DNA of 64,000 nt from Tetmemena sp. SeJ-2015 (Eukaryota; Ciliophora; Spirotrichea; Sporadotrichida; Oxytrichidae). The position numbers were made by a program, and so were the translations under genes. Each line of letters starts with the position of its first letter. Within the stretch, counting starts at the first letter, position 1. The notes beneath the pieces were generated by a model that did no database searches, was not told where the DNA came from, and saw only the letters and a list, made by a program, of their open reading frames with translations. The stretch lies in NCBI GenBank assembly GCA_027382625.1, contig JAJKFJ010021845.1, positions 239,695 through 303,694 of the forward strand. The letters run 5' to 3'. Positions 52,455 through 55,132 of the stretch are shown one piece after another.

Positions 52455-52645
52455 TCCCCGCAAGGTGCCGCTGGAAACAGCGGAGAATTGGGAAGCCGGT
52501 GGGAAACCGGCACTGCCCCCGCAACGGTGACGGGACAGGGGCGCGGCAACCGCCACTGGGGAAGGGAGCCCCGGGAAGGCGCCGCGTCCGGGCCGCAAGG
52601 CCCATGGCCCGCAGCCCGGAAACCAGCCTTGCAGCAGACGTCAAG
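52455..52645 (+). promoter_or_regulatory. cobalamin riboswitch upstream of Rieske oxygenase
   Basis: Complete plus-strand B12 aptamer: CAAGGTGCC, GGGAAGCCGGTGGGAAACCG, GCACTGCCCCCGCAACGGTG, the B12 box GCCACTGG, GGGAAGGCG and CAGCCCGGAAACCAGCC. Element order and spacing are standard. It starts about 95 bp after the FAH gene stop and ends about 120 bp before the Rieske gene ATG. It is therefore predicted to make that gene cobalamin-responsive, even though no cobalamin gene lies downstream. Confidence 0.93.
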
Positions 52646-52762
52646 CCGCGGGCGGCGGTGTGGGCGATGGAGCGGGCGTTTCCCTTTGAAACGCGCCTGC
52701 GGCCCTCGTCCCATGGCCTGTCAGCATTCCGAAAAAGCCCTGCCAGTCCAGAGGTCTACCCC

Positions 52763-54012
52763 ATGTTGAGCCAGCCCGAAATCGCCGCCGAGCTTGCCGC
52801 CCGCCAGCCGAATTTCTCGCTCTCCCGCGCGCTGTATTGTGACGAGGGCACCTATGCCGCCGATCTGGAGCATGTCTTCTACCGCGAATGGCTGTTCGCC
52901 ATCCCGGCCTGCGAGCTGGACCGCCCCGGCGCCTATGCCACGCTTCAAATCGGCGCCTATCCGGTGGTGATCACGCGCGGCAATGACAACGCGATCCGCG
53001 CCTTCCACAATGTCTGCCGCCATCGTGGCCAGCGCCTCTGTTCCAAGGACCATGGCCATACGCCGAAACTGGTCTGCCCCTATCACCAATGGACGTACGA
53101 TCTTGACGGCAAGCTGCAATATGCCCGCGACATGGGCGAGGGCTTCGATGCCGGCAAGTTCGGGCTGAAGAAGGTCCATTGCGTCGATCTGGGCGGCATG
53201 GTCTTCGTCTGTCTGGCCGATGTGCCACCGCCGATCGCCGAACTGGCCAAGCCGCTGATGACCTACCTTGCCCCCTCGGGCCTCAAGGAGGCCAAGGTCG
53301 CCTTCTCCTCGACCATCGTCGAAAAGGGCAACTGGAAGCTGGTGATCGAGAACAACCGCGAATGCTATCATTGCGGCGGCTCGCACCCCTCGCTCTGCCG
53401 CACCTTTTCCGACAATCCCAAGATCGGCGCGATGGACGGGCCGCATTCCGCAAGCGACGAGATTCTGGCCCATTGGACCCGCTGCGAAGGGGCGGGGTTG
53501 CCGTCGCGCTTTGTGATGCATCCGACCTCGCAATGGCGGCTGGCGCGCGTGCCGCTGTTGAACAACGCCGAAAGCTACACGATGACGACCAAGGCCGCCG
53601 TGGCCCGGCGCATGGGCGCCATGCCCTTCAACGATGCGGGCAGCCTGCTGTTCTTCCACTACCCGAACACCTGGAACCACTTCCTTGCCGATCACGCCAT
53701 CGTCTTCCGCGTGCTGCCGATCAGCCCGACGGAAACCTTGGTCACCACGAAATGGCTGGTCCACAAGGACGCGGTCGAAGGCGGGGTACGAATCGGAGAC
53801 CCTGACCGCGTCTGGCTGCCACCAATGACGAGGACCGGCAGGTGGTCGAGGAGAACCAGCAAGGCATCCTGTCGCCCGCCTATGAGCCCGGCCCTATTCC
53901 CGACGATCCATGAAGAGGGCGTGATCCAGTTCATCGACTGGTATGCCAGCCTATGTCGGGCGGTTTGGCCCGCCCGGCCTTGGCGCGGAGTATCCATGCC
54001 AAGCACGGATGA
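52763..54012 (+). CDS. gbcA: glycine-betaine-type Rieske monooxygenase, oxygenase subunit
   Basis: Rieske non-heme iron oxygenase of about 416 residues, like GbcA, which demethylates glycine betaine to dimethylglycine plus formaldehyde. The 2Fe-2S site is [14 protein letters not shown] plus [20 protein letters not shown]. The mononuclear iron histidines are in [20 protein letters not shown], a motif typical of the betaine/choline group. A frame change near 53785 and another near 53955 affect the tail, which ends [10 protein letters not shown]. Stachydrine or carnitine oxygenases are alternatives. It lies behind a B12 riboswitch and overlaps the reductase gene. Confidence 0.82.
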
Positions 54013-55132
54013 ACTGGTCCCCGAACCCTGGAACGACGCCGAACTACTGGAATGCGCGAGGGTCGTGCCGGAAAACGGTGACACCGCGTCCTTCACATTC
54101 CGCGCGCCCTCGGGCGCGTGGTTCGACTATCAACCCGGCCAGTTCGTGACGCTGGACCTGCCGGTCCCCGGCGGCAACGTGCAGCGCACCTATACGATCT
54201 CGTCCTCGCCCTCGCGGCCGCTGTCGATCTCGATCACGGTCAAGGCGCAATCGACCAGCGAAGGCACGCGCTGGATGCTGGATCACCTGAAGCCCGGTAC
54301 GAAGATCAAGGCCTTTGGCCCCTCGGGCATCTTCTCGTTCCATCGCCACAAGGCGGCGAAGTATCTGTTCATTTCCGCCGGTTCGGGCATCACCCCGATG
54401 ATGTCGATGACCACCTGGGCCTGGGACTCGGGCGAGATGCCTGACATCACCTTTGTCCATGCCGCGCGGCGCCCGTCGGAAATCTTCCGCGAAAGGCTGA
54501 GCAAATTCGCCAACCGGTGCCCGGCTTGAAGCTGCGCTTCACGGTAGAGGAACCTGATCCGTTCCGGTCCTGGCCCCGGGTATCTGGGCCGCCTGTCGCA
54601 GATCATGCTGGGCCTGATGGCACCCGACTATCTGGAGCGCGAAGTCTTTTGCTGCGGGCCCGAACCCTTCATGCAAGGGGTTCGCGACATGCTGGTGTCG
54701 CTTGGCTATGACATGGAGCGCTATCATCAGGAAAGCTTCGGCGCGCCGGTGAAGACCGAGGCCGAGGCCCCGGTGATCGACGATGTCGCCCCGGTCGAGG
54801 GCGCCCGGGCCGAGATCACCTTCGCGACCTCGGGCGTCACCACGCGCTGCGAGGAAACCGACACGGTGTTGGCGGTGGCGAAACGATCTGGTCTGAACAT
54901 CCCTTCGGGCTGCAACTTCGGCCTCTGCGGCACCTGCAAGGTCAAGAAGCGCGGCCGGCATATGGCCATATGGCATCGCACGGGATTGGGGGCCCCGGTT
55001 TCCACCCAGGGCAATCCGCCAGCGCGGCGCCGCCCATCGCTCTGGTCTGCGGGGGCACACCCCCCGCACCGACGGCTTCTCGGACCAGCGGCTAAACCGT
55101 CGCTCGCCCGTGGGTTGCTTCGACCAAGATGA
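53996..55132 (+). CDS. gbcB: glycine-betaine monooxygenase reductase (FAD/2Fe-2S)
   Basis: Electron-transfer partner. The FAD domain has FDYQPGQFVTLDLPVPGGNV and QRTYTISSSPSRPLSISITV; the NAD domain has YLFISAGSGITPMMSMTTWA and FCCGPEPFMQGVRDMLVSLG. The C-terminal plant-type ferredoxin reads IPSGCNFGLCGTCKVKK. The fourth cluster cysteine, normally about 30 residues later, is not visible in any frame, and the last 55 residues look unlike the family, so the 3' end is damaged or altered. Frame changes lie near 54515 and 54580. Start 53996 overlaps the gbcA end by 17 bp. Confidence 0.82.

Follow-up and report, generated by a model that had tools for sequence, protein, structure and literature searches.

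A cobalamin riboswitch before gbcAB-like genes of Alphaproteobacteria: a candidate B12 switch for betaine demethylation

The locus described here lies in a 64,000-nucleotide stretch (the window) of contig JAJKFJ010021845.1 from assembly GCA_027382625.1 (Tetmemena sp. SeJ-2015). It consists of a plus-strand cobalamin (B12) riboswitch followed by a gbcA-like gene for a Rieske oxygenase and a gbcB-like reductase gene (Table 1). The pairing of this aptamer with gbcA was found to recur across families of Alphaproteobacteria and to depend on the presence of DUF1638 (PF07796), used here as a marker for the corrinoid MtgC system. We consider it probable from these comparisons that gbcAB is a B12-independent isozyme of the corrinoid betaine demethylase MtgB-MtgC-MtgD (MtgBCD), placed under a B12 OFF switch.

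Table 1. Positions of the riboswitches and gbc genes in the window
Feature	Position	Strand	Basis and remarks
Cobalamin riboswitch aptamer (gbcA type)	52446..52645	+	cmscan RF00174, model R1, conserved blocks located
P13-like hairpin GCCGC-GGGCG-GCGGT, G-rich loop	52645..52659	+	hairpin type recurs in other leaders
Remaining leader / expression platform up to gbcA start	52660..52762	+	no intrinsic terminator-like site
gbcA-like Rieske oxygenase (betaine-type N-demethylase)	52763..53985	+	Pfam, NCBIfam, homologue; about 53790-53985 out of frame
gbcB-like reductase (FAD, NAD, 2Fe-2S domains)	53996..54988	+	Pfam, NCBIfam; interrupted at about 54510-54605, frame lost near 3' end
Second cobalamin riboswitch, upstream of cobW-cobN-cobG-like-cobH-like and further cob genes	35090..35323	-	RF00174, 85.7 bits
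Third cobalamin riboswitch, upstream of cbtA and a gene for a tetrapyrrole methylase	21762..21982	-	RF00174, 97.4 bits

The aptamer scored 98.3 bits against the Rfam model RF00174 (gathering score 31.5, E 2.6e-23) over the full length of the model (1-189 of 189), and this whole-model score above the gathering cut-off places it in the family. The original prediction of a plus-strand B12 riboswitch, put at 52455-55132 together with its target genes, was essentially right. A covariance model, R1, was built from 23 leaders picked by a plain pattern (the window and 22 of the 80 loci described below); it scored 152.6 bits at 52454-52634 in the window, which is itself one of the training sequences. 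The end of the aptamer is separated from the gbcA-like start by 117 nucleotides. The P13-like hairpin in this interval has a G-rich loop complementary to the aptamer motif CCCCCGC, with which it is predicted to pair, and we take this pairing to be the L5-L13 kissing loop of known structures. The sequence thus appears to hold the L13-type hairpin that is expected downstream in RF00174, with a loop capable of pairing with L5. Energy folding of the leader was uninformative (z -0.29), as was a scan that gave no sigma-70-like promoter on either strand in 52300-52800; support for the riboswitch comes from the covariance score and from comparative conservation.

The hairpin was also looked for in 61 of the 77 riboswitch leaders, the 16 from short stretches (L156-L177) being left out. 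A GGG-loop hairpin with at least five pairs, no more than 75 nucleotides past the aptamer, was present in 48 of the 61 leaders, where shuffling of single bases predicts 12.4. The loops that recur (GGGTG, CGGTGGG and CGGCGGG) are complementary to the same CCCCCGC segment. As a five-T run was present in nine of the 61 leaders, and as the promoter/terminator scan found no intrinsic terminator-like site on the plus strand of the window, translational or Rho-dependent control seems more likely than intrinsic termination.

Downstream of the leader, the first open reading frame (ORF) encodes Rieske and Ring_hydroxyl_A domains (Pfam) and has GbcA as its top NCBIfam model; the second encodes FAD, NAD and Fer2 domains and has GbcB as its top model. 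The reading frame of gbcA is lost over roughly its last 60 codons. An intact homologue of 412 amino acids (P0001) is 98% identical to the window product across its first 342 residues, so the frame breaks in both genes are probably base-calling indels. These ORFs are the sole identified genes directly after the aptamer on the plus strand, as had been claimed; the next identified genes, from about 56.4 kb (di-haem oxidoreductase/imelysin and pyrroloquinoline quinone (PQQ) dehydrogenase), are on the minus strand. The residues C85xH87, C105x2H108 and H203x4H208 were invariant in all 20 aligned sequences, and correspond to CXH, CX2H and HX4H, which we take to be the motifs of GbcA/Stc2-type Rieske demethylases. 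With both domains and these motifs in place, the enzyme can safely be called a betaine-type Rieske demethylase, and glycine betaine is its likely substrate.

The distribution of the leader was determined in three sets of genomes. The first comprised 80 loci of enzyme relatives from GTDB genomes, the top 80 among at least 592, in 79 genomes (L029 was omitted, being an additional gbcA in the genome that carries L031). With R1, an aptamer was detected directly upstream of gbcA, on the same strand, at 27 of the 80 loci, training loci matching by construction. These 27 loci span Paracoccaceae, Roseobacteraceae, Stappiaceae, Rhizobiaceae, Phyllobacteriaceae, Rhodovibrionaceae and Rhodospirillaceae. 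Of 149 Rhodobacteraceae genomes sampled, 29 had gbcA (E up to 1e-130 to P0001), and the riboswitch was present at 12 of 30 gbcA loci. Of 151 genomes sampled from the Rhizobiaceae group, 56 had gbcA, with the R. leucaenae protein as reference and E up to 1e-140, and 37 of these had the riboswitch. The search for the aptamer upstream of gbcA homologues, which the original prediction proposed as a check, was thus positive in all three sets. Rfam agreed with R1 at all 26 positive and 14 negative loci among the 40 submitted, namely 12 of 12 and 8 of 8 in the first set, and 14 of 14 and 6 of 6 among the 20 Rhizobiaceae loci covered. Loci L013 and L054 were counted as positive although their Rfam scores (31.8 and 32.0 bits) barely clear the cut-off, and L018, with just 337 nucleotides upstream, was counted as negative. 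An R1 scan of 52 switch-free whole genomes gave no match to a second gbcA-type aptamer; it lacked a positive control and was not used.

Two-sided changes were observed at 26 of the 48 predicted pairs among the 23 aligned aptamers. In a tree of 87 proteins the riboswitch label fell into three main groups and changed 14 times, at least ten of these changes being forced. The riboswitch is therefore retained before gbcA in several lineages, one of the properties expected of a B12-independent isozyme under a cobalamin switch. Conservation across the GTDB, Rhodobacteraceae and Rhizobiaceae sets rules out chance placement of an unrelated aptamer.

If gbcAB is a B12-free substitute, the switch should accompany MtgC. 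DUF1638 was the sole gene put through this association test. At all 14 DUF1638 loci inspected (13 in genomes with the switch and one, G325, without), mtgC lay beside DUF1638, with 77-85% identity to that of Roseibium, and an MttB-family methyltransferase gene was nearby in nine of them. All 27 riboswitch genomes of the first set had DUF1638, versus 27 of the 52 others; in the Rhizobiaceae it was present in 36 of 37 genomes with the switch versus 3 of 19 without it. In the Rhodobacteraceae the counts were 12 of 12 versus 14 of 17, and as nearly all genomes of that sample carry DUF1638 (138 of 149), it cannot discriminate. When 157 distinct genomes were pooled, DUF1638 was present in 71 of 72 with the switch versus 41 of 85 gbcA-bearing genomes without it (Fisher p 5e-14). 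For this set, G005, G008, G027, G041, G045, G077 and G078 were counted once, G168 was represented by its riboswitch locus L102 rather than its switch-free L125, and absence of DUF1638 in the Rhizobiaceae was read from the list of positives (21 of the 41 lacking genomes not being individually named).

Because relatives share both traits, dependent and independent Pagel models were also fitted on the gbcA tree. The dependent model was preferred for the 157 genomes (likelihood ratio (LR) 32.5, p 1.5e-6), for the Rhizobiaceae (LR 30.5, p 3.9e-6) and for the first set (LR 13.9, p 0.0075). Across all genomes, the fitted rate of riboswitch loss was 28 without DUF1638 and 0.85 with it; the underlying tree is a midpoint-rooted FastTree gene tree rather than a species tree, and some rates were at zero or at a bound. 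Parsimony gave 21 riboswitch changes and 17 DUF1638 changes, and thus many independent events. The sole genome with the switch and without DUF1638 (G317) has a broken aptamer, which has lost its GCCACTG and GGGAAGG boxes. A second damaged aptamer, at L128, belongs to a DUF1638 genome. Damage of this kind (L128 and L159) and the weak Rfam scores of L013 and L054 might indicate that the riboswitch is a relic or acts elsewhere, with gbcA driven by its own promoter. The covariation, the recurrence of the P13-like hairpin, the retention of the switch across families and the tie between riboswitch loss and DUF1638 loss all argue the other way, and we regard a relic as very improbable.

Gene neighbourhoods were examined around the riboswitch loci. 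In Roseibium aquae and R. hamelinense, the riboswitch and gbcAB are divergent from a run of mtgC, DUF1638, an unassigned ORF and the pterin-binding mtgD. In Marivivens (L055) and genome G169 (L113), they are divergent from a second cobalamin riboswitch heading nrdH-nrdI, and at L055 this second operon also holds nrdE-nrdF (nrdE assigned by Pfam, the other nrd genes by eye). The nrdH-nrdI-nrdE-nrdF operon encodes a B12-free ribonucleotide reductase. Extra cobalamin riboswitches were present in the flanks (up to 6 kb) of five of the 27 switch loci (L011, L013, L026, L032 and L055) and of none of the 53 others, with R1 matches counted above 20 bits; the model detects other aptamers with lower sensitivity, those of the window's cob operons scoring 35.5 and 30.2 bits. 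L013 carries four cobalamin riboswitches in 9 kb (at 1790, 5762, 8450 and 9936, all on the plus strand), of which the one before gbcA is nearly degenerate. At L026 an extra riboswitch (9092-9278, minus strand) lies directly downstream of nrdB, a position which rules out control of nrdB; the next ORF on the same strand is small and unassigned (8670-8978).

The two further riboswitches of the window precede corrin genes, in agreement with the claim that two other B12-controlled cobalamin operons are present, and it is plausible that all three would respond together. This raises the alternative that gbcAB feeds corrin synthesis and is turned on with the cob genes, betaine supplying glycine for 5-aminolevulinate (by the C4 route) and one-carbon units for the ring methylations by S-adenosylmethionine. 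Cereibacter azotoformans, in which gbcAB faces metH and the cobalt transport genes cbiMQ, would fit this explanation, and according to PMC8123684 betaine feeding increases the B12 yield of industrial P. denitrificans and is practised with S. meliloti as well. Corrin feeding does not predict the dependence on the MtgC marker. Furthermore, none of the 12 Paracoccus gbcA loci has the switch (one of them with just 337 nucleotides upstream), and DUF1638 is missing from 11 of the 12 genomes, although cob operons with cobalamin riboswitches occur on two plasmids from other Paracoccus species. Corrin feeding is accordingly considered unlikely. The original prediction also allowed for an unrecognised cobalamin-linked role of the Rieske enzyme. 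One such role, that of a missing precorrin-3B synthase, is ruled out by a cobG-like ORF with a NIR_SIR half domain in the window's cob operon (29587-30531), CobG being the aerobic precorrin-3B synthase, and the wider proposal is not needed.

Several observations weigh against the isozyme explanation. Forty-one genomes combine DUF1638 with a riboswitch-free gbcA, some of them in a separate gbcA clade; the switch is therefore a common and not a necessary arrangement. Among the new Rhodobacteraceae genomes, the association (DUF1638 in 10 of 10 versus 11 of 14, p 0.24) was non-discriminating for that family alone. At L011 (5541-12094), the riboswitch, gbcA, gbcB, a homocysteine S-methyltransferase gene and metH form one run, which puts a B12-dependent enzyme downstream of the switch. 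The gbcB gene adjoins gbcA at 26 of the 27 riboswitch loci, the exception being L078, where none was matched next to gbcA. A search of the assembly from which the window comes, which looks partial for this bacterium, gave no DUF1638 and, for MtgC, a single piece of 33% identity at the site of a MetH-like gene; MttB-family genes lay on other contigs and could not be assigned to the bacterium. Finally, the curated GbcA equivalog cut-off (NF058607, 670 bits) was missed by all ten homologues tested (485-532 bits; 501.9 for P0001), so the name GbcA is not licensed by this cut-off.

This last result bears on the identity of the substrate. P0001 scored 545 bits against the chains of 3vca and 4qup, which we take to be the stachydrine demethylase Stc2, as against 502 bits for the GbcA model, in a different scoring system. 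The isozyme logic may thus hold for proline betaine or a similar quaternary amine, with gbcAB replacing another MttB-type demethylase; MttB families are multi-copy according to the available part of PMC12478193. The top NCBIfam models are nevertheless still GbcA and GbcB, and no marker of a different substrate adjoins the genes inspected. Another quaternary amine is possible, though not the substrate we favour, and would be a variant of the B12-switched isozyme rather than exclusive of it.

Loci without a gbcB match (E 1e-20) beside the gbcA-like gene were L029, L057, L062, L064-L067, L069, L072, L074 and L078, mostly in Rhizobium and, L078 apart, mostly riboswitch-free. These genes may use another electron donor or encode a different enzyme.

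With regard to the source of the window, its contig (C2895) is 303,694 bases long in an assembly of 146 Mb and 5213 contigs, from which the bacterium seems only partly represented. The closest named homologues of the enzyme are from Gemmobacter-like Paracoccaceae. Frame shifts are frequent in the cob, gbc and other genes, which, with the size of the assembly, suggests a bacterial contig of low base accuracy within a eukaryotic or mixed assembly. A MetH search of the assembly returned nine pieces of 42-70% identity, eight of which contain stops; they lie on a different contig that could not be assigned to the bacterium. An mtgBCD counterpart in this bacterium is inferred from its relatives, of which genomes G001, G002 and G003 contain DUF1638. 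The window also carries an ORF for a PQQ-dependent dehydrogenase (60294-62116, minus strand, Pfam PQQ), which by eye resembles an XoxF-type methanol dehydrogenase and adjoins imelysin (58801-60018) and di-haem oxidoreductase (57297-58865) genes.

The following mechanism is proposed for gbcAB as a B12-switched isozyme. When adenosylcobalamin, the presumed ligand, is plentiful, it would bind the leader RNA, the L5-L13 kissing interaction would form, and translation of gbcA (or its Rho-sensitive transcription) would be shut off. Betaine would then be demethylated by the corrinoid system MtgB-MtgC-MtgD, which would hand the methyl group to tetrahydrofolate and, via MtgE, to methionine. When cobalamin is short, the leader would open and GbcAB would use O2 and NAD(P)H to oxidise the methyl group to formaldehyde, and osmolyte catabolism could thus continue without B12. 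That low cobalamin may switch on a path for the methyl groups of betaine that needs no B12 had been put forward from the window by itself, and is now supported by the conservation of the pair and its co-evolution with DUF1638. We lean, somewhat less firmly, towards the wider statement that across Alphaproteobacteria a cobalamin riboswitch chooses between corrinoid transfer and GbcAB oxidation of glycine betaine methyl groups.

If this is true, what becomes of betaine carbon in soils and in the sea would depend on B12 supply, betaine use would be buffered against B12 shortage by a B12-switched, B12-free alternative, and sequence would predict which strains keep consuming betaine without the vitamin. 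B12-riboswitch isozymes would also extend from biosynthesis (of methionine and deoxynucleotides) to the catabolism of an abundant osmolyte. The full-text literature searches retrieved no report of a cobalamin riboswitch before gbcA; the regulon tables of PMC3766115 and RegPrecise, outside the scope of these searches, may list it. The regulatory class is already known, and within the literature searched this target is apparently undiscussed in print.

The GbcAB enzymes of Pseudomonas and Chromohalobacter share with the genes described here the two-component Rieske N-demethylase architecture. They differ in that the ten homologues tested here fall under the NCBIfam equivalog cut-off, and in that many of the alphaproteobacterial genes carry a B12 leader. 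The structures 3vca and 4qup (presumably Stc2) and 3n0q, from Ruegeria sp. TM1040, belong to the same subfamily as the window enzyme. The TM1040 gene with a gbcA-type leader encodes the exact protein of 3n0q, the record name of which gives no substrate; a B12-switched demethylase would be a likely setting for this orphan structure.

In the B12-dependent direction, the proposed counterpart is MtgBCD/MtgE of Ruegeria pomeroyi, the DUF1638 and mtgC genes of which type co-occur with riboswitch-gbcAB. According to the available passages of a 2025 study (PMC12478193), R. pomeroyi demethylates glycine betaine via the cobalamin system MtgB-MtgC-MtgD, a major marine betaine demethylase requiring cobalamin; mutants showed that MtgC and MtgD are both needed for this demethylation, the two proteins also serve methionine synthesis, and DUF1638 is the predicted reactivation partner of MtgC. 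In the same passages GbcAB is treated as a separate pathway of other bacteria, with no cobalamin riboswitch before gbcA, and the single mention of a riboswitch is in the title of a glycine-riboswitch reference.

The closest regulatory parallel is given by the cobalamin riboswitches that precede the B12-independent isozymes metE, nrdAB and nrdDG. Isozymes of B12-dependent enzymes form a standing class of cobalamin regulons in the part of PMC3766115 available. The gbcA switches resemble the metE and nrdAB switches in their RNA family, RF00174, and in the proposed logic, by which a B12-free enzyme is off while cobalamin is present. They differ in that the target here is a Rieske oxygenase of osmolyte catabolism, and the proposed B12-dependent partner is a multi-subunit corrinoid methyltransferase.

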